Assembly (NCBI GenBank): GCA_013331575.1
Contig: DUGD01000042.1
Span: forward strand, 345 to 13,039
Source of the DNA: Candidatus Woesearchaeota archaeon
GTDB taxonomy: Archaea; Nanobdellota; Nanobdellia; Woesearchaeales; UBA525
Direction: 5' to 3'
Length of the DNA stretch: 12,695 nucleotides
Part shown: piece by piece, positions 4,532-11,392 of the stretch
Numbering within the stretch: position 1 is the first letter of the stretch
Layout of the letters: each line of letters begins with the position of its first letter
Notes under the pieces: generated by a model
Told to the model about the DNA's origin: nothing
The model's database searches: none
What the model saw: the letters and a program-made list of their open reading frames with translations, nothing else
Program-made: the position numbers and the translations under genes

Positions 4532-4557
4532 CCCCCTCCCACGGGAAAATTATAAAT
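4532..4557 (-). promoter_or_regulatory. TATA box and GGGAGGGGG upstream of the transporter gene
   Basis: On the minus strand, ATTTATAATT (4557-4548) is followed by GGGAGGGGG (4540-4532) and ATG 4526. The box is near-palindromic, so it could also drive the plus strand; a plus-strand transcript would then start around 4580, just before the structured element at 4594. Confidence 0.55.
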
Positions 4558-4593
4558 CTATCGAGGAGAGGGTATGTGTAGAACGAGGATGTA

Positions 4594-4734
4594 CGGCCGC
4601 CTTGGAGTAAATCACGAGACCGAGGTGCGAAGGATTCGACTGACTACTCGAATCCTTGCACAGGGAGCCAGCTCCCTCGTGCCGGAGGCCTCGGTCGAGT
4701 CAAAGTCTGCGGAAGCACAGATGCTCCGCGGCCG
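4594..4734 (+). ncRNA. Structured element A (terminal stem + CTT bulge family)
   Basis: The terminal stem CGGCCGC (4594-4600) pairs with GCGGCCG (4728-4734). CTT (4601-4603) is bulged, then GGAGTA (4604-4609) pairs with TGCTCC (4722-4727). Inside is a branched arm closed by GACCGAGG (4618-4625) and CCTCGGTC (4688-4695). It holds an interrupted stem GTGC(G)AAGGATTCGA with TCGAATCCTTGCAC, and a hairpin AGGGAG/CTCCCT. An alternative hairpin CTGCGG(A)AGCA (4707-4717) with TGCTCCGCGG (4722-4731) competes with the terminal stem. The lack of protein-like sequence in any frame and the matched copies elsewhere support a structured RNA or folding DNA element. RNA status and strand are inference. Confidence 0.5.
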
Positions 4735-4885
4735 CGTGAAACGAGAATTGCTGTGCAATCAAGAAGAGATTACTGAGACAATAGATGCTTTTGTTGTGGC
4801 CTTGGCGTGTTGTCAGACGCTCGAGATGGTAACTGCCCTCAAGCGTTGCTATTGGACTGCGTCACATATGCGCCGCCACAACAAG
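4735..4885 (+). ncRNA. 3' extension of element A, shared with element B
   Basis: This part matches the stretch after element B in order and structure: CGAGAA; ACAAT (4778-4782) paired with GTTGT (4793-4797), then GGCCTTG; a variable arm GACGCT (4816-4821) with AGCGTT; and finally a 32-base segment (4854-4885) starting GGACTGCGT and ending GCGCCGCCACAACAAG. That segment is 30/32 identical to 10176-10207. CAATAG (4779-4784) can also pair with CTATTG (4848-4853). Together with element A it makes a 292-base composite. Confidence 0.5.
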
Positions 4886-4913
4886 AACATAGGAGTAGTC
4901 TTTCTCAAAGCCG

Positions 4914-4950
4914 CTTCCGTCATAATATTTATAAACAACGCCGTCGGAAG
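4914..4950. promoter_or_regulatory. TTTATAAA palindrome flanked by a 6 bp inverted repeat
   Basis: The palindromic TATA-like TTTATAAA (4928-4935) lies between CTTCCG (4914-4919) and CGGAAG (4945-4950). It could drive transcription of the structured elements on either side. No direct evidence of use; a hairpin with a weak 25-base loop is the alternative reading. Confidence 0.3.
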
Positions 4951-4987
4951 GCGCACTATACCATCGCGGAGGTCCGCGAGCAGAAAT

Positions 4988-5013
4988 GAACCTCCCGGGC
5001 TAAAGCCTGCGGT
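4988..5013 (-). other. Hairpin resembling an IS200/IS605-type right end
   Basis: On the minus strand the sequence reads CCGCAGGCTTTAGCCCGGGA then GGTTCA. GGC-TTTA-GCC forms a short hairpin extended by CCG/CGG and is followed by GGAGGTTCA. As I remember them, ends of IS605/TnpB elements and the 3' ends of their omega RNAs often have a TTTAG-loop hairpin followed by GGAGGTTCA or similar. No TnpA or TnpB gene or remnant is recognisable nearby. The match is short, so this is a lead, not an identification. Confidence 0.25.
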
Positions 5014-5030
5014 GTCCTTTGCTTCAACGC

Positions 5031-5129
5031 GAGGAACGCGGAGCACCTAACTCACGCCGTTCCGTGCACATGCGAAATCGTGCCTGCATAAATCGGCACG
5101 ATTTCTGGATATGCTCCAAGGCGTTCCTC
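5031..5129 (-). ncRNA. Structured element C (terminal stem + CTT bulge family)
   Basis: The best-paired copy. GAGGAACGC (5031-5039) pairs with GCGTTCCTC (5121-5129), 9 bp. GGAGCA (5040-5045) pairs with TGCTCC (5112-5117), 6 bp. AAG (5118-5120), read as CTT on the minus strand, is the only bulge between the two helices. Inside is an 11 bp hairpin, GAAATCGTGCC (5074-5084) with GGCACGATTTC (5095-5105), with a 10-base loop. 99 nt long. The minus orientation is set by analogy with copies A, B and D, where CTT lies on the 5' strand. It lies upstream of the beta-propeller gene, about 54 bases before its start. Confidence 0.5.
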
Positions 5130-5183
5130 CTCGAGTTAAAGCACAATACATCAATATACTAACAGCAAAAAAGAAGTGAGACC

Positions 5184-6452
5184 ATGGCGTTCGGCTTGAC
5201 CAAGCTCTTCTCGAAACATGCAGGGAGCATGATTGAACGCTGGGTGTTCGATGCGAAATCACCAGTGGTCTGCGCAGCGGCAGTGGCGGATCTCCACGGG
5301 AACGGCACGCACCAAGTAGTGTTCGGTACCAAAAGCGGCCAAGTGACCTGTGTGGACGAAGCAGGGAAGGAACTATGGACGTTCGGCGCGAAAGCGGAAC
5401 TCAACGCGGTCGAATCGTTCTTCGTCGATGAGGAGCGCGTGCACAGCATCAACGCGCCGCCGACCATCGCCGATATCGACGGGGACGGCAAACAGGAGAT
5501 CCTGGTCGGCAACGAGAACGGGACGCTCTACTGCATCGAACCGAACGGCAAAGCGCGATGGAAGTACGATTGCGGCGGCAGCATCAAGGCAAGCTGCCTC
5601 ATCTCCGACATCAACGCCGACGGCAAGAAAGAGATACTCGTCGGATCGACGAGCGGCCGTCTCATCGTGCTCAACAACAAGGGCGAGAAGCTCTTCGAGT
5701 ACGATACCACGGCCCCCATCGAAAGCGTACCGGGCGTGCTCTTTGGCGCCGCGGGCGGCAAATCCATGATCATCTTCGGCAATAACAACGGCACGCTCCA
5801 CGCTATCACGCCATCGCAAGAACTTTTGTGGCGCGTCGAGCTCGGCAGCAAGGTGACGGCAGCACCCGCGTTCTTCGACGACCCGGAAGAACGGCGCATG
5901 ATCATCGGCACGCTCGGAGGCGATGTCGTATGCGTGAGCGAGCACGGCGAGGTCGTATGGACGTTCAAGACCCGCGGCAGCATATACAGCGCTGCGGCGA
6001 TAGCAGATCTCAACAACGACAAGCGGCCCGAGATCGTCGTCGGCAGCTGCGACAACAACGTGTACGCCATCAACGCCCAAGGGCATAAGATATGGAGTTT
6101 CGAGACCGATTTCTGGATAACGGCGGCGCCGATAATCGCCGATATCGACGGTGACGGCAAGCCTGAAGTGATAGTGGGGAGCTTCGACCACAACGTGTAC
6201 GTGCTCGATAGCCAAGGATCGTACGTCCTCGATTACATGCCGGGGATAAGCGACATCGTCAACCAATCGGGCCATTACTCGAACATCATGACAAGCGACC
6301 CCGGCGACCAGACGGGGAAGAAGCTCTACCAATTCACGACGCCAGGCATCATCGTCGGGTGCGCGCTTCTCGAGCGACGGCATATGAAACCGGCGCTCAT
6401 CGTGAACGTGAAAAGCGGCCGCATCGGCGACCTCGAGCACAGCGAAGGATGA
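5184..6452 (+). CDS. Beta-propeller protein with PQQ/FG-GAP-type repeats
   Basis: 422 residues with seven clear repeats of about 45-50 residues, each with Trp/Phe at the start of a strand (W20, W65, W126 and so on), a central IADIDGDGKxE-type loop, ILVG or IVVG, and NGTLYCI or NNVYAI. The acidic loops DIDGDGKQE (97-105), DINADGKKE (142-150), DLNNDKRPE and DIDGDGKPE resemble Ca-binding FG-GAP loops. A degenerate eighth unit may lie in the last 70 residues. The family is usually secreted, but the N-terminus MAFGLTKLFSKHAGSMIERW has no hydrophobic signal segment, so this copy looks cytoplasmic. It probably acts as a binding scaffold; no enzyme motif is visible. A TATA-like AATATACT about 28 nt upstream fits a leaderless start; AAGAAGTGAG is a weak ribosome site. 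The gene stands alone. Confidence 0.85.
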   Translation: MAFGLTKLFSKHAGSMIERWVFDAKSPVVCAAAVADLHGNGTHQVVFGTKSGQVTCVDEAGKELWTFGAKAELNAVESFFVDEERVHSINAPPTIADIDGDGKQEILVGNENGTLYCIEPNGKARWKYDCGGSIKASCLISDINADGKKEILVGSTSGRLIVLNNKGEKLFEYDTTAPIESVPGVLFGAAGGKSMIIFGNNNGTLHAITPSQELLWRVELGSKVTAAPAFFDDPEERRMIIGTLGGDVVCVSEHGEVVWTFKTRGSIYSAAAIADLNNDKRPEIVVGSCDNNVYAINAQGHKIWSFETDFWITAAPIIADIDGDGKPEVIVGSFDHNVYVLDSQGSYVLDYMPGISDIVNQSGHYSNIMTSDPGDQTGKKLYQFTTPGIIVGCALLERRHMKPALIVNVKSGRIGDLEHSEG

Positions 6453-6546
6453 ATACAAAGGTAGAATAGTAGACTTCTGCTCCATATCCGGTATCGTTCT
6501 CAAGTGTAGCGCTCTCATCTAGTGTGAATTGACAATGAGTGGAAGA

Positions 6547-6739
6547 CATGACTACAGCAGACGACATTACTGGACGATTAGGCGTGACTATGCGACTGGA
6601 CGCAACATCACTTGAATGAGTAGACCGACTAGCCAATCAGGCGTGACTACAACACAAGATTATAGCTAGACACACAGACGTCACCAGACGAACGAGCGTG
6701 GCTACGACAAAAAGGAGTAACTAGACCGCCAATCACACC
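6547..6739. repeat. Degenerate GCGTGACTAC repeats, spacing about 55-60 bases
   Basis: GCGTGACTA occurs at 6582, GCGTGACTAC at 6641 and GCGTGGCTAC at 6696, with a weaker ATGACTACAG at 6549. Between them, pieces such as AGTAGACCG..CTAGCCAATCA and AACTAGACCGCCAATCA recur. No open frame with protein character crosses this stretch. It looks like an eroded tandem array or low-complexity spacer after the beta-propeller gene. Confidence 0.35.
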
Positions 6740-6834
6740 TCTGCCGCCTTGGTCGGAGCTTTCGCATCGACGTTCGCGTCTCCATAACTCGGTAATCACA
6801 TGACGTGCGACCGGAGTACTCTCGCCGCGGCAGA
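6740..6834 (+). ncRNA. Structured element D (terminal stem + CTT bulge family)
   Basis: TCTGCCGC (6740-6747) pairs perfectly with GCGGCAGA (6827-6834). CTT (6748-6750) is bulged. GGTCGGAG (6751-6758) pairs with CTCTCGCC with one mismatch and two wobbles. Inside is GACG-TTCG-CGTC (6769-6780), a four-base-loop hairpin. It shares with element E the CTTGGTCGG start, GCTTT, AACTCGGTA and CTCT-G-CC before the closing stem, although the closing stems differ in sequence. Length 95 nt. It lies between the beta-propeller and Nudix genes, both on plus. Confidence 0.5.
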
Positions 6835-6890
6835 AAACAACAGGATAGTTTCATGAATAGGTTCCACCACGCCCGCACTCTGGGAAACGC

Positions 6891-6898
6891 TCTTAAAC
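6891..6898 (+). promoter_or_regulatory. TATA-like box of the Nudix gene
   Basis: TCTTAAAC is centred about 25 nt before ATG 6920, and no Shine-Dalgarno-like sequence is present, which fits a leaderless archaeal transcript. Confidence 0.5.
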
Positions 6899-6919
6899 CC
6901 CCGCACCTTGCTCTGACAC

Positions 6920-7411
6920 ATGCCGACACGCGAGAAGTCATGCGGCGCCATAGTCTATCATGAGCGGGACGGCGCCAGGAAGTACCTGCTCGTGCAGCAG
7001 AAGTACTCGCGCAACTGGGGATTCGCCAAAGGACACGTGGAGAAAGGCGAGGATGAACGCGCCACCGCGATGCGCGAAGTCGCGGAAGAGACCGGTCTCG
7101 CGGTGGACCTCGACCCTGAATTCCGCACGCAAGCGGTATTCTATGATCGCGCGCGCAACAGCAAGCTCGTCGTCCTTTTCCTCGCGAAGGCGTTGACGCT
7201 CGACGCCACACCCGGCGACGATGTGGAAGAGGTCTCATGGCTCTCGTTCGAAGATGCGCGCAAACGATTCCGCTTCAAGAACACACGATCGATCCTCGAG
7301 CGCGTAGAGCGACAGCTCTCCAAGACTGCGACCGCCGATACGGGCACGGTCGTGGACGGTCCACATACAGGAACGCCTCGATCGATAGAGATCTCTTCTC
7401 AGAAATCGTAA
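6920..7411 (+). CDS. Nudix hydrolase, diadenosine-polyphosphatase-like
   Basis: 163 residues. A complete Nudix box spans residues 38-60: G38, five residues, E44, seven residues, R52-E53-V54, E56-E57, G59-L60, with the metal-binding Glu in place. The lead-in SCGAIVY..KYLLVQQK..NWGFAKGHVE is typical of MutT and of archaeal and bacterial bis(5'-nucleosyl)-tetraphosphatases (Ap4A hydrolases), which cleave nucleoside diphosphates linked to another group. Exact substrate not readable. The domain ends near residue 133. The last 30 residues are a polar tail whose coding sequence overlaps the 3' end of the convergent zinc-ribbon gene by 13 bases. The start is supported by the TATA box spacing. Confidence 0.92.
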   Translation: MPTREKSCGAIVYHERDGARKYLLVQQKYSRNWGFAKGHVEKGEDERATAMREVAEETGLAVDLDPEFRTQAVFYDRARNSKLVVLFLAKALTLDATPGDDVEEVSWLSFEDARKRFRFKNTRSILERVERQLSKTATADTGTVVDGPHTGTPRSIEISSQKS

Positions 7412-7851
7412 TCTCGCCTGCCCGAATCGCGCAAGATGGCATCCGCGCTCGATTCTTCCGGAGTGCTGATGCGCTTGCTGCCGCAGTAGGGACACATGAT
7501 CTGGTCGAGCGCCTTGTTGCTCGTGAAACGATACTTGCAATTCGTGCATGAATACTTGCCGCTACTCGAACGAGGGTTCTTCGGGCGAGCGAATTGGTCG
7601 CGGATGGTGGATGATGGCGCAGGAGTGCTCGACGCGGGTTTCTGACCTCGCGGGGGCAGGCCAGCACAGGGACGGCAGACCATGCCTCGACCCGACACAT
7701 CCATGACCATCTCGAGGAGGAGATGCTGCTTGCCGCAGCGGAAACATTTGATCATCATCGTCTTCTGGTCCATAAGTTCACCTTTGTCGCTCTTCGCCGC
7801 TTGGGCTTTCGTCATTGCTGTCGACGACGACGAACGGAACATACCCCGCAT
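7399..7851 (-). CDS. Double zinc-ribbon protein
   Basis: 150 residues from ATG 7851. Two CxxC-CxxC zinc ribbons: C36-FR-C39 with C59-RP-C62, and C102-TN-C105 with C120-PY-C123 followed by GSKRI. They are separated by a Pro/Ser-rich linker (66-98). Such ribbons bind nucleic acid or mediate protein contacts; no specific family is recognised. The start is uncertain. ATG 7851 lies 13 nt after the expected transcription start of the TATA box at 7886-7895. The internal ATG 7773 (residue 27, MDQKTMM) has a good AAAGGTGA 4 nt upstream and removes a Ser/Ala/Lys-rich stretch, giving a 124-residue protein. Both ribbons are in either form. The 3' end overlaps the Nudix gene tail to tail. Confidence 0.85.
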   Translation of the reverse strand: MRGMFRSSSSTAMTKAQAAKSDKGELMDQKTMMIKCFRCGKQHLLLEMVMDVSGRGMVCRPCAGLPPRGQKPASSTPAPSSTIRDQFARPKNPRSSSGKYSCTNCKYRFTSNKALDQIMCPYCGSKRISTPEESSADAILRDSGRRDYDF

Positions 7852-7885
7852 ATCGCCGTGTAACTACTGGACATGAGTTCTTTCG

Positions 7886-7895
7886 TTTTTATACT
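7886..7895 (-). promoter_or_regulatory. TATA box of the zinc-ribbon gene
   Basis: On the minus strand AGTATAAAAA is the best TATA match in the 205-base divergent gap. It predicts a transcript start near 7864, shortly before ATG 7851. Apart from this box and a weaker GGTATTTATG at about 8033-8042 facing the plus gene, I see nothing else in the gap. Confidence 0.55.
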
Positions 7896-8071
7896 TTGTG
7901 CAAGAAACGACGTAGTTACGGGTGCGGTCGCCGGTCCGGAGCGAGCCGCTAATACGAACGTGCGCAGGATACGACCAGGAAGATGATGCGACGAGCGGGA
8001 CACGAATGGCCGCTGGCAACCGCGAGAAACAAAGGTATTTATGCAAGTAGACGGCAGTGACAGCTTCTAGG

Positions 8072-8377
8072 ATGGAAACACACGAACCTCTTGAATACCG
8101 AGTCGCAAAGCACAACGGCAAGTTCGTCCTGCTCGAGGAGAGCGGACGGGACATGGAGCGGTACAGGATAGCGAGATCGTTCGACGCCGCCGAAGCGCTC
8201 CACCAATACATGGAGCGTTCACGGGAGAAAGGATGGCCGGAGCACTTCCGCTACGAGGCGCCGCGTGGGTGGACACCATTGTCAATCGACGATATTGCGG
8301 CAATCGACCCGGAGAGCAGGAAGCACCTGCGCAAGGTCAAAGATGGCGCAGTATCTCACGCAAGTCGTTATTCATGA
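8072..8377 (+). CDS. Small conserved-looking hypothetical protein
   Basis: 101 residues from ATG 8072 (a GTG at 8057 adds five). Family not recognised. The sequence is charged and soluble, with no Cys or membrane segment: strand-rich start EYRVAKHNGKFVLLEE, then a helix with SFDAAEALHQYMERSREKGW, and SIDDIAAIDPESRKHLRKV. The pattern looks like a small alpha/beta domain. GGTATTTATG at 8033-8042 is the likely TATA box. The last 41 bases overlap the 3' end of the convergent HAD phosphatase gene. Good amino-acid composition and a start without competing frames support a real gene. Confidence 0.7.
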   Translation: METHEPLEYRVAKHNGKFVLLEESGRDMERYRIARSFDAAEALHQYMERSREKGWPEHFRYEAPRGWTPLSIDDIAAIDPESRKHLRKVKDGAVSHASRYS

Positions 8378-9014
8378 CGACGATATCCGCCGCGGCGCTG
8401 ACCTTCTCGCTCTTCGGGCAGAACGCTATACCTAATCCCGCCGCGTGCAGAATGTCGATGTCATTCTCACCGTCACCCACGAAAACCGTCTCGGAGAGTG
8501 GTATGTCTTCGCGCGCGCAGATGGCGTGCAGCGCCTTGTGCTTCGACCCTTCATCATAGATGGTGTCTTCCCACCGCAAGATACTGCCTCCCTCATCGAA
8601 ATAGACATTATTCACATACACATCCTCGAACGGGTGGTCAGGAAAGAGCGTGTCGATGAGGGTATTCAGACTACCGGAGATGACTGCGAGTTTGTATCCA
8701 CGCCGATGCAGCTCCAGCACCGTCTCGCGCGCGCCAGGCATGATATCATGCAGCCGCGCCGCACGTTCGAAATCCGCCCTAGTAGCCCCTCCGTCACGGA
8801 ACGTGCAAAGATCAAGGTCAACCCATTCCTTGTAACTGAGTTTCCCTGATCGGAACAGCGCATAGCGCTCGTCATTGCGTCGCTTACCGAGCTCCGGACC
8901 CTCTACTGTGGTGTGCAACGTAAACCAGTAGTTCTTGCGCCCGATATCTTGTACTAGTGTCCCGTCAACATCAAAGCAGACGAGGCGGTATTTCTTGCAT
9001 GGGGTGCTCTCCAT
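8337..9014 (-). CDS. HAD-family phosphatase, SerB-like (paralogue 1)
   Basis: 225 residues from ATG 9014. HAD motif I is CFDVDGTLV (nucleophile D15, acid D17), motif II ISGS (about 112-115), the motif III Lys is in GSKHK (158-160), and motif IV is GDGENDID (180-187). The helical cap lies between motifs I and II, as in phosphoserine phosphatase and related enzymes; the substrate cannot be read. The FPDHPFEDVYVNN block is shared with the second HAD protein in this window. An upstream in-frame ATG (9056) adds 14 residues, but TTCTTAAAC about 26 nt before 9014 supports the shorter form as a leaderless transcript. It is divergent from the gene at 9089, and its 3' end overlaps the small gene on plus. 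Confidence 0.9.
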   Translation of the reverse strand: MESTPCKKYRLVCFDVDGTLVQDIGRKNYWFTLHTTVEGPELGKRRNDERYALFRSGKLSYKEWVDLDLCTFRDGGATRADFERAARLHDIMPGARETVLELHRRGYKLAVISGSLNTLIDTLFPDHPFEDVYVNNVYFDEGGSILRWEDTIYDEGSKHKALHAICAREDIPLSETVFVGDGENDIDILHAAGLGIAFCPKSEKVSAAADIVVMNNDLREILRHL

Positions 9015-9035
9015 CACGGGCCGAGGCCATCGTGT

Positions 9036-9067
9036 GTTTAAGAACGTTCCGCGCAAGGTTTATTACG
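9036..9067. promoter_or_regulatory. Back-to-back TATA boxes of a divergent promoter
   Basis: On minus, TTCTTAAAC (9044-9036) points to ATG 9014. On plus, GGTTTATTAC (9058-9067) points to ATG 9089. Each box centre lies about 26 nt from its start codon, and neither gene has a clear Shine-Dalgarno site, so both look leaderless. The two boxes are about 20 bases apart, so the genes may share control. Confidence 0.55.
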
Positions 9068-9088
9068 CTAGCATCCCAGGACCGAACC

Positions 9089-9886
9089 ATGGTGACGCTG
9101 CCAGGATACCATTGCATCATGGATGCGCAAGTCTACGCGAGAGATCACGACGGTAAAGAGCATGATATACTGCTTTTCGGACGATGGCGCGAACCGACAG
9201 TGCAAGAGGTGGTGCATGAGCTGCACACGCAGGTAAAACGCATCGAACAAGAGCACGGTCTTGACGAGAAAAACGCAGTATTGTACGCGCACGAAGGGAA
9301 CAGGCTCGCAGCCGAACTCCTCACGCTCAGCCCTCTTCTCTTGCACGACCTGCGCGATCTCCACCCGCGCGGCATCCTCTTCGTGAGCGATATCATAAGC
9401 TCACTGCCGGACGCGAAAGATACCGCGCCGATGCACCTGGATTGCTGCAATGGACGGCTTCCCGCCGGCAGCCTGAGGGATGCAGACGCTTACTCGTATC
9501 TTCGGATGTTGCGCACGAACGATGCGGTCCGCTACACGGTATCGCTGCACCTCGAGGATTGGGTTCTCAGGCCGAAAGACGCGGTACTCAAGGAGTTCCT
9601 CACACAGCACACCGCGATGCGGCCACGGCACGTATCGGAGCTCGAGGTGACGACGATGCTCGACGCTATATACGCCGGATTCTCGACACGCGATGACGTA
9701 TTGTGCATCCCTGATCGAACGAGCGATGCGCTCGAGAACGGCGCGTATCTCGCGGTCAAAGGCATGCAGGAGAGCATCCGCACGACGGCCATCTTCATGG
9801 AAGGGATGCGCGCAGGGTTGCAACGCAAGCAAGATGATGATTCGGAAGGAGATGCGGTTACGCAACCGGATGATATCGTGAATTAG
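9089..9886 (+). CDS. Unknown soluble protein
   Basis: 265 residues from ATG 9089 (a second ATG at 9119 gives MDAQVYARDHDG). Family not recognised. The first 40 residues look like strands (DAQVYARDHDGKEHDILLFGRW), followed by a long amphipathic helix (EVVHELHTQVKRIEQEHG). A central part carries two adjacent Cys (LDCCNGRLPAG) and mixed helix and strand. The C-terminal part is helical (MQESIRTTAIFMEGMRAGLQ) and ends in an acidic tail (DDDSEGD). No signal peptide, membrane helix or known catalytic motif was seen. An upstream frame extension to 8957 exists but runs antisense into the HAD gene and past the TATA box, so I reject it. Divergent from HAD paralogue 1. Confidence 0.8.
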   Translation: MVTLPGYHCIMDAQVYARDHDGKEHDILLFGRWREPTVQEVVHELHTQVKRIEQEHGLDEKNAVLYAHEGNRLAAELLTLSPLLLHDLRDLHPRGILFVSDIISSLPDAKDTAPMHLDCCNGRLPAGSLRDADAYSYLRMLRTNDAVRYTVSLHLEDWVLRPKDAVLKEFLTQHTAMRPRHVSELEVTTMLDAIYAGFSTRDDVLCIPDRTSDALENGAYLAVKGMQESIRTTAIFMEGMRAGLQRKQDDDSEGDAVTQPDDIVN

Positions 9887-9961
9887 GGATTCTGAGAGAG
9901 CATCTTCACAACAGGGATTGGGGAAGACAGAGCGTAGTTAACGCTTCATCACAGGTGGCTT

Positions 9962-10056
9962 TTTTCGCTGCCTTGGAGTTTAAGCCGACGCACGAGACGA
10001 CCGCAGTCCTCGTGCGAGGTACAATCTGCGGGAGCATAACTGCTCCGCAGCGAAAA
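9962..10056 (+). ncRNA. Structured element B (terminal stem + CTT bulge family)
   Basis: TTTTCGCTGC (9962-9971) pairs with GCAGCGAAAA (10047-10056), 10 bp perfect. CTT (9972-9974) is bulged. GGAGT (9975-9979) pairs with GCTCC (10042-10046) with one wobble. Inside is the hairpin CGCACGAG/CTCGTGCG with a 12-base loop. A second hairpin, CTGCGG(G)AGCA (10026-10036) with TGCTCCGCAG (10041-10050), uses bases 10047-10050 of the terminal stem, so the two folds exclude each other, as in element A. 95 nt. A T6 run (9960-9965) overlaps its 5' edge and could end the transcript of the upstream gene. Confidence 0.5.
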
Positions 10057-10207
10057 GTACGAGAACAAGATTGACTATTAGAGAATACAGGGCACTAAGA
10101 CAATAGCGGTCATTATTGTGACCTTGACATCATCCAGACTGCCGTCATTGGCCGCAGCCGACGGCAGTCGCAAAAGGACTGCGTGATATATGCGCCGCCA
10201 CAACAAG
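10057..10207 (+). ncRNA. 3' extension of element B, shared with element A
   Basis: CGAGAA, then ACAATA (10100-10105) paired with TATTGT (10114-10119), then ACCTTG. A 10 bp arm GACTGCCGTC (10137-10146) with GACGGCAGTC (10160-10169) has GGC/GCC inside it. The 32-base segment 10176-10207 (GGACTGCGT to CCACAACAAG) differs from the copy after element A at two bases. The extension ends 18 bases before the HAD paralogue 2 stop codon, so little else fits in this 339-base gap. Confidence 0.5.
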
Positions 10208-10225
10208 CACAGAATGGTAGAGACA

Positions 10226-10900
10226 TCACTCCTCTTTGAGTATCAACGGCAAGAGGTCGCGGTAGTCTTTGCTGTCGATGATGACCGTCGCGGTCTTGCG
10301 CACTTCCGGGTCGTGGCTGTTGAACGCGACGGCAAGTCCTGCCTCCCGCATCGCGACGATATCGTTGCGGCTATCGCCGACGAAGACCGTTCTCGCGAGC
10401 GGTACTCCGACGCGATCCGCCACTTGCTGCATCGCAAGGAGCTTGCCTTCGTCCTCCCCGAAAGGGTTGTGCGTCCACCCGGAGATGAACCCGTCGTGGT
10501 CGAACTCGATATTGCCGATGAAGACCTCGTCGAACGGGTGGTCGGGGAAGATCGTCTCGAAGGCGATGCGCAATCCTCCGCTGATGAGCACGAGCGTGCA
10601 ACCGGCCCTCTTGAGCGCGTGGAGCGTCTCGGCGGCGTGCTCGTGGAGTCGCAGATGCTTGATTATCTCGGATTCTATCTCGTGCTTCCGCGCGCCGCGT
10701 TTACGCCACTCGCCGACGTCGCGACCCAGCCATTCGCTGATGCTGATGATGCCGGTGCGATAATGCTCGCGGTTCATCATCTCGACTTCGTCGGGAACCT
10801 CGTACCGTCTATGGAGCTGTGTCCATATGACTTGATTGTCGCTGGTCACCGCGAGTGTGCCGTCGAAATCGAAACAGATGAGATCGTATTTCCGCTTCAT
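10226..10900 (-). CDS. HAD-family phosphatase, SerB-like (paralogue 2)
   Basis: 224 residues from ATG 10900. Motif I is CFDFDGTLA (nucleophile D11, acid D13), motif II ISGG (about 106-109), the motif III Lys is in DEGKLLA (153), and motif IV is GDSRNDI (176-182). The helical cap sits between motifs I and II. It shares long blocks with paralogue 1 (FPDHPFDEVFIGNIEFD against FPDHPFEDVYVNNVYFD) but has SGG and GDSRND where that has SGS and GDGEND, so the substrates may differ. ATG was preferred over GTG 10909 because AGTGA lies five bases before it. The TATA-like CCATAAATAC near 10936-10945 would start the transcript about 14 nt before the ATG. Stands alone. Confidence 0.9.
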   Translation of the reverse strand: MKRKYDLICFDFDGTLAVTSDNQVIWTQLHRRYEVPDEVEMMNREHYRTGIISISEWLGRDVGEWRKRGARKHEIESEIIKHLRLHEHAAETLHALKRAGCTLVLISGGLRIAFETIFPDHPFDEVFIGNIEFDHDGFISGWTHNPFGEDEGKLLAMQQVADRVGVPLARTVFVGDSRNDIVAMREAGLAVAFNSHDPEVRKTATVIIDSKDYRDLLPLILKEE

Positions 10901-10935
10901 GCAATTCACTGTGTACCAGATAGGCTATCGCGCGT

Positions 10936-10945
10936 GGTATTTATG
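10936..10945 (-). promoter_or_regulatory. TATA-like box of HAD paralogue 2
   Basis: On the minus strand CCATAAATAC is centred about 26 nt upstream of a predicted transcript start near 10914, leaving a short leader before ATG 10900. Confidence 0.45.
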
Positions 10946-11072
10946 GGTTATGATAGGAAATAACGCTATGACGACAGAAGATACAATAATGATGATAATC
11001 GTCAACCCGATCAAGATAGTGCCGCGGATTCCCTCGGATAGTCAACTACTTCTAATAATCAGTCGATTACTG

Positions 11073-11088
11073 CTCGCGCCGCGGCGAG
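11073..11088. repeat. CTCGC/GCGAG hairpin, possible partial family element
   Basis: CTCGC (11073-11077) and GCGAG (11084-11088) flank GCCGCG. The right half, GCCGCGGCGAGAGT, is identical to the minus-strand start of element D, but no matching 3' half is found nearby. Between 10946 and 11072 I see only AT-richer sequence without a gene. Confidence 0.3.
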
Positions 11089-11119
11089 AGTGCGTTGTTA
11101 TCAACCACCCTATAACTCA

Positions 11120-11237
11120 AGCGCTGCGGCAGATATACGATGACTGCGCTGCGACAAGAGAGCGCACATGGTTAGGCACTGCATCGCCTATTGAGCATTA
11201 GCACCCACCAACCTCAAAGCCCTGTCAAGGCAGCGCT
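11120..11237 (-). ncRNA. Structured element F (terminal stem + CTT bulge family)
   Basis: AGCGCTGC (11120-11127) pairs with GCAGCGCT (11230-11237). On the minus strand the order is AGCGCTGC, CTT bulge, then GACAGG pairing with TCTGCC (one mismatch, one wobble), and GGGCTTTGAGG. 118 nt, the weakest inner helix of the six. Its 3' half on plus (AAAGCCC, three bases, CAAGGCAGCGCT) is repeated almost exactly in element E. Confidence 0.4.
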
Positions 11238-11263
11238 CGACGCAGACTGAATGTTTTGATTCG

Positions 11264-11357
11264 AGCGCTGCGGTCAGAGTGCGAAGCCGCAAGCGTCCGA
11301 GTACCGAGTTTCCTATTCGTCAATGCACGAAGGCCAAAGCCCGACCAAGGCAGCGCT
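11264..11357 (-). ncRNA. Structured element E (terminal stem + CTT bulge family)
   Basis: AGCGCTGC (11264-11271) pairs with GCAGCGCT (11350-11357). On the minus strand the CTT bulge is followed by GGTCGGG, pairing with CTCTGACC (GGTC/GACC perfect, then wobbles). It shares with element D the blocks GCTTT, AACTCGGTA and CTCT-G-CC. 94 nt. The 26 bases between F and E lie in a separate 11 bp inverted repeat, GCAGCGCTCGA (11230-11240) with TCGAGCGCTGC (11261-11271), so the pair can also fold across the copies. Confidence 0.5.
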
Positions 11358-11392
11358 AAACGTAGAGATGTCGATGAACGAAAAAATCCTGC

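Follow-up and report, generated by a model that had tools for sequence, protein, structure and literature searches.

Comparison with described mobile and structured elements

MITEs of bacteria and archaea, among them Correia/NEMIS, RUP and ERIC, are short, non-coding, mostly intergenic and foldable multi-copy sequences with terminal inverted repeats and target duplications of fixed length, and the elements described here resemble them in each of these respects. Three other systems show partial likeness: REP/BIME sequences with their RAYT (Y1 HUH) transposases are dispersed intergenic hairpins bearing a bulge, integron attC sites keep their fold while the sequence varies and have extra-helical bases and a variable end structure, and the bulge-helix-bulge of archaeal RNA splicing places a 3-nt bulge beside a 4-bp helix. 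We analysed a 12,695-nucleotide stretch of a Candidatus Woesearchaeota genome (hereafter, the window), in which eight copies share a bulged-hairpin plan: a variable terminal stem (P1), a CTT bulge, a GG-rich inner helix (P2) and a variable interior. We consider it likely that these elements are MITE-like, non-autonomous DNA transposons that form one family in Woesearchaeota and carry a structured hairpin internally. Among the marks of MITEs, we found terminal inverted repeats, 9-bp target duplications and many short, non-coding copies. An archaeal order that is known almost entirely through metagenomes thereby gains a family of transposons whose ends and target duplications are defined.

Unlike MITEs, the elements contain a bulged hairpin in which the arms are replaced without loss of pairing, and their interior classes interchange at one site; further differences are that the searched libraries contain no matching sequence and that an autonomous relative was not found. 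The family is absent from these libraries, namely Rfam 15 and, for the patterns or the single copy tried, viral contigs, phages and plasmids, which is a statement about the libraries and not about the printed literature. Unlike REP/BIME, they consist of a ~95-nt hairpin inside ~145-bp ends with 9-bp target duplications, and Y1_Tnp is missing from six of the eight genomes with at least 18 matches, including the genome of the window (G000). Membership in REP/RAYT was rejected on the absence of a Y1 transposase from G000: PF01797 (Y1, HUH transposase) had no match in G000, G001-G005, G007, G038 or G169, and was present in G006, G008 and G188. In contrast to attC sites, the elements lack a conserved arm motif, were not seen in arrays and carry border duplications in young copies; they lack the R/L box, and P1 varies on both sides at seven of eight pairs among 59 copies, so they were not assigned to attC. 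A bulge-helix-bulge was discarded because the 3' side past the CTT bulge and P2 is single-stranded and branched; the elements have no second 3-nt bulge in a continuous helix, and P2 opens to a branched interior.

Bulged hairpins in the window

The first-pass annotation had listed six copies (A-F). All six are present, although the count is eight, because A2 (4789-4886, plus strand) and B2 (10112-10208, plus strand) had been overlooked. Bit scores below are from a covariance model, R1, built from 17 copies, all from the window's genome. Element A (4594-4734, plus strand; 59.0 bits) has the 7-bp stem CGGCCGC, the CTT bulge, the inner helix GGAG/CTCC and an interior enlarged by additional hairpins. 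A2 (65.4 bits) belongs to the TTGTTGTGGC-stem subfamily and has a 12-bp stem with one G.T; as a blastn query it gave 28 matches in its own genome, itself included. Element C (5031-5129, minus strand; 58.1 bits) is of class 3, with loop GATTTATGCA and stem GAGGAACGC, and element D (6740-6834, plus strand; 53.5 bits) has the stem TCTGCCGC. Element B (9961-10057, plus strand; 68.1 bits) is closed by TTTTCGCTGC, with ten Watson-Crick pairs and one outer G.T. B2 (47.9 bits) is a decayed copy of the TTGTTGTGGC subfamily in which the CTTG core is retained and the 5' arm mutated; to its left, 15 bases (10091-10105, plus strand) differ at no more than three positions from the terminal repeat of young copies, GGCTCTTAGGCAATA. 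Element E (11264-11357, minus strand; 59.5 bits) and element F (11145-11237, minus strand; 50.2 bits) share the stem AGCGCTGC, and the inner helix of F is GACA/TGTC.

The plan that had been proposed for all six holds. For A, C, D and E, the fold of lowest energy contains the terminal stem, the CTT bulge and the inner helix. In that of B, the terminal stem is closed but the 3' strand of P2 is drawn into a local hairpin, the planned P2 (GGAG/CTCC) being possible as well, and F adopts the plan only with corrected borders: its closure at 11120, from the extent 11120-11237 given previously, was a mis-pairing, and with the new borders F is ~93 nt long, as are most others. The terminal stems, as claimed, vary in sequence yet pair. 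That the elements are real is supported by a mechanical scan for stem, CTTG and inner stem, which returned eight hits in the window (seven elements and one in-gene hit at 10286), compared with a mean of 0.33 in 30 dinucleotide shuffles. R1 recovered all eight window copies, seven of which belonged to its training set.

With the ORF choice made here, the gaps of more than 300 bases are 4533-5183, 6453-6919, 9887-10225 and 10910-11392; in agreement with the earlier description, all four contain copies and no copy lies inside any chosen gene. The window genes, based on the ORF list and Pfam, encode an MCM-like ATPase, a beta-propeller with two Woesearchaeota relatives (66% and 40% identity), a NUDIX protein, two HAD phosphatases and an MFS-like protein whose Pfam score is below the cut-off. 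The two HAD-family genes (8337-9056 and 10226-10909) are on the same strand, 1.2 kb apart, separated by a single further gene and by elements B and B2. Rows of additional hairpins occur in enlarged copies (window 4594-4734; L029 1060-1269; L010 356-513; L193 473-629), some of which have GCGC-like linkers parting the extra hairpins.

Terminal inverted repeats and target-site duplications

Young copies of the TTGTTGTGGC subfamily end in the inverted repeats GGCTCTTAGGC/GCCTAAGAGCC, and outward of P1 they run into the terminal repeat GGCTCTTAGGCAATAAG...TTGCCTAAGAGCC; both ends of one young copy were read directly. One copy in G038 also has terminal inverted repeats (GGCTCTGTAG...CTACTAAGCC). Complete young copies are ~142-150 bp without inserts; those of the TTGTTGTGGC subfamily measure 142-147 bp, or up to 248 bp where inserts are present, and no gene was seen within the copies having both ends found (142-248 bp).

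Exact GGCT and AGCC ends in range were found in 9 of 254 collected copies. Outside four of these nine, the flanking 9-mers are identical (TGATTCTGG, ACACAGACG and GTTCGTTGC; GAGCTGTTA in G038), and the best of 72 swapped controls reached 5/9. When one mismatch was allowed per end, 133 of the 254 copies, from eight genomes, were scored, and six reached a duplication of at least 8/9, compared with 0.18 expected. Five of the six were among 70 scored copies in G000 and one among eight in G038; none was detected among the 55 scored copies of the six other genomes. When all flanks were scanned, less strictly, for repeats of at least 8, the result was clear only in the TTGTTGTGGC subfamily (6/25; control 0.0435 per pair), with no excess among other G000 copies (1/71; control 0.059). 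Three further candidate duplications, L038 and L043 (G000) and L189 (G169), were read by eye and not counted. Based on their terminal inverted repeats and 9-bp target-site duplications, the young copies are insertions into DNA. No target duplication was recognised at the eight copies of the window; we take them to be older than the young ones.

No autonomous transposon sharing the element ends was noticed in 399,641 bases of overlapping G000 loci. A virus or plasmid origin found no support: six pattern hits in viral contigs proved not to be elements, and one young copy compared by blastn with phages and plasmids gave no match.

Copy number and taxonomic distribution

The first-pass annotation had proposed a covariance-model search and a covariation analysis. 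None of the outcomes that would have counted against it (copies no more frequent than by chance, a lack of covariation, an existing Rfam family) was obtained, and matches were found in relatives as well: R1 gave at least 132 matches at E<=1 and at least 120 at E<=1e-3 in G000 (1,625,642 bases, 99 contigs), both lower bounds given that 150 of 775 first-look candidates were scored. Across the order, 10 of 287 genomes (its own included) had a match at E<=0.01 under strict filters with ~13 candidates scored per genome, and the 277 genomes having none double as a negative control. In a deeper search of 11 chosen genomes, nine had matches at E<=0.01, with up to 44 per genome. A second model, R2, was built from 59 class-3 copies on the loop CGATTCATGCAG and at E<=1e-3 had matches in 10 of 371 genomes sampled from the phylum. 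The positives listed in the two surveys fall into six GTDB families (f1, f20, f31, f36, f70 and f80), all of one order. Both the CTTG bulge and the loop CGATTCATGCAG come back in all six; in f20, f36, f70 and f80, no more than one or two copies were detected per genome. Copies are dispersed and mostly intergenic, and 28 of 192 examined (8 of 87 in G000) overlap ORFs of a crude gene caller, some of which are probably spurious.

The annotation had named no archaeal RNA family with this plan, and Rfam 15 has no match in the window at E<=1; its only hits in 15 related loci were one to a tRNA nearby and another below threshold, neither of them on an element, on which grounds a tRNA-like or other Rfam RNA was rejected. 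In UBA525, a tRNA-Phe (L130 8075-8162) is located ~100 nt downstream of a degenerate copy.

Anatomy and covariation of the hairpin

Class 3, the most widespread class, has the layout P1 - CTT - GGAG - YAAAAYCAG - P3 around loop GATTYATGCA - GCAAAAN - P4 - CTCC - P1'. In 19 of 23 pairs, both sides vary among 59 class-3 copies, which come from eight genomes. Covariation was strong: double-sided cells numbered 369, whereas shuffles gave 98.5 (sd 12.6) and sliding the partner no more than 91; pairing of P1 and P2 served to collect these 59 copies and that of P3 did not. The P1 columns are free outside the innermost pairs, with 40 distinct 10-mers among 53 copies, and one-sided changes are few. CTTG is invariant and the GATT..TGCA loop nearly so, and in P3 a tandem G.A/G.A replaces two A-T pairs in 26 of the 59 copies, the A-T pairs being kept in 27. 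Other classes have P1, CTT and P2 alone in common, such as the TTGTTGTGGC subfamily in G000 and minimal copies of 47-55 nt in G004.

The interpretation offered in the first-pass annotation is supported as far as it concerns a genome-wide, fold-conserved family that has strong covariation, is absent from Rfam and has all its listed positives in one archaeal order. A reading as selected RNA is unsupported, with target duplications and inverted repeats, G.T pairs little commoner than A.C mismatches, random orientation in f1 (the window's GTDB family) and site turnover speaking against it. Under that explanation, the elements would be a family of structured RNAs, either dispersed small RNAs or elements of 3'-UTRs, which owe their spread to transposition and their retention to the fold of the transcript. 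The double-sided changes, the invariant bulge, the nearly invariant loop and the tandem G.A pairs favour it; we nevertheless regard it as improbable on the evidence of stem mismatches, gene orientation and one inverted interior presented below.

Stem mismatches and orientation to genes

Selection for RNA pairing would be expected to lead to a much greater tolerance of G.U than of A.C. In P3 (63 loop-anchored copies, eight pairs each), we counted 485 Watson-Crick pairs, 6 G.T, 6 A.C and 7 others, and in P1 (53 copies with an unambiguous 3' junction, 10 having been dropped) 404 Watson-Crick pairs, 7 G.T, 3 A.C and 10 others, which sums to 13 G.T and 9 A.C in 928 stem cells. The acceptor stems of 37 tRNAs from four of the same genomes, a control biased toward pairs accepted by tRNA finders, had 240 Watson-Crick pairs, 19 G.T and no A.C among 259. 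The G.T:A.C ratio differs between elements and tRNA acceptor stems (p 0.0017), so that G.T in the elements is little above A.C, unlike in tRNA of the same genomes. This comparison is support for maintenance at the DNA level, not proof of it. The elements provide a natural case in which covariation, the standard sign of RNA structure, occurs alongside signs of DNA-level maintenance, and a count of G.T against A.C can be used at little cost to screen other multi-copy candidates for 'structured RNA'.

Orientation relative to genes is random in f1 (++41, --31; p 0.29), and f1 copies occupy 24 convergent and 26 divergent gaps, which counts against an RNA family and led us to reject a terminator or 5'-leader role. 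On the other side, copies in f31 (G038 and G169) follow gene direction (++14, --2; p 0.004), at a median of 33-38 nt from the nearest gene on the 5' side on either strand (11 and 17 copies placed; L092-L202), a pattern that favours an RNA family.

Turnover at orthologous sites

A UBA525 contig keeps the window's five-gene order and has no R1 match in the gap between the MFS and propeller genes, where the window has three copies; elsewhere, this contig has one weak R1 match (E 0.017) and one stem-scan hit. G006 and G008, which are 84-93% identical in long aligned stretches of DNA, offer six readable orthologous sites. At site 1, interiors are of different classes and P1 changed at five pairs, all compensated. 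Site 2 has the same interior, with one P1 pair compensated and two one-sided changes. At site 3, P1 is the same except for one base and the interior is different and inverted, an inversion that argues against an RNA family. At site 4 the 5' arm is shared, the 3' arm has two changes and both sides of a 4-bp block in P3 have been replaced, and at site 5 P3 and P4 were replaced and P1 has two compensated and one uncompensated change. Site 6, read by eye, has a decaying G008 copy (L248) with uncompensated changes. In a more distant pair, G004/G007, P1 is the same and P3 covaries, while the flanks no longer align well; this element pair is more alike than its flanks. A clean empty site was not found among the compared relatives.

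Because orthologous sites show changed interiors and retained P1, sites can persist while their contents are exchanged. Two findings weaken the notion that P1 arises afresh with each insertion: it is recognisably inherited with the site in G006/G008, and the P1 arms of nine minimal G004 copies agree more than we would expect for unrelated arms (see below). Persistence at orthologous sites, together with the G004/G007 pair being more alike than its flanks, suggests a use to the host. The mechanism can be tested on pairs of related genomes in which one site carries a different or inverted interior.

Over sites 1-5, the 60 P1 pairs show eight double and six single changes, compared with 0.3-0.7 compensated doubles expected. 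Such an excess, together with the few one-sided changes among the 59 class-3 copies, would also arise in passive palindromes, hairpins of no function or mobility in which template switching or hairpin repair makes the two arms equal; we think this very improbable, since it leaves the conservation of bulge and loop across families unaccounted for and the decayed L248 carries uncompensated changes. Least probable of the explanations weighed are structure-specific recombinase sites of an attC-like kind, in which the P1/CTT/P2 junction of a folded strand is read and the interior swapped: nine minimal G004 copies do have similar interiors on differing P1 arms (mean identity 0.86 vs 0.49 at P1 positions 4-9, the latter above our expectation for unrelated arms), one G006/G008 site has the same P1 with a different, inverted interior and two others have a different interior with a homologous, compensated P1, but no cassette arrays were seen, copies are dispersed and gene-adjacent in all orientations, and conversion between copies accounts for the swaps as well.

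Model of a proposed MITE-like family

In the MITE-like reading, a complete young copy has terminal inverted repeats GGCTCTTAGG...CCTAAGAGCC, which enclose a long bulged hairpin of P1, the CTT bulge, P2 and one or more further hairpins. A DDE-type transposase probably acts in trans, as the 9-bp duplication fits one. The hairpin may be kept as a DNA structure, either a single-strand hairpin or a cruciform, given that its two arms change jointly and that G.T is barely in excess of A.C. Conversion or recombination with other copies would exchange the interior while the site stays fixed, and in one instance the interior appears to have ended inverted between symmetrical P1 arms. Older classes that lack duplications presumably have the same origin, because they share the core and one class-3 copy in G038 has a duplication.

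Several observations stand against this reading. Among the eight genomes scored, duplications reached the threshold only in G000 and G038, and none was recognised at the window copies; the autonomous partner was not identified, and Y1, the one transposase family tested, is absent from G000. The f31 orientation tracks transcription, and some copies, as counted above, overlap called ORFs. Conservation of the CTTG bulge and the loop CGATTCATGCAG in six families exceeds what a passive MITE needs, and the persistence at orthologous sites described above also counts on this side. A more specific proposal, which we offer tentatively and consider rather unlikely, is a mobile DNA element recognised by shape: host or transposition machinery would read the folded strand (P1, CTT bulge, P2 and the conserved loop), leaving stem sequence free, and arms would be rewritten from each other at the DNA level while interiors are swapped or flipped on a standing P1.

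Two further features of the cores were observed. In G004, one minimal copy is nested in the loop of another (L115 1495-1620) and is flanked on both sides by CATAC, a possible target duplication. Some cores have, within or next to them, an inserted module with TCACTTCGTT and a small hairpin. This module is common to different genera, being carried by L018, L020, L023, L024, L025 and L037 in G000, L115 in G004 and L130 (~7785-7830) in UBA525.
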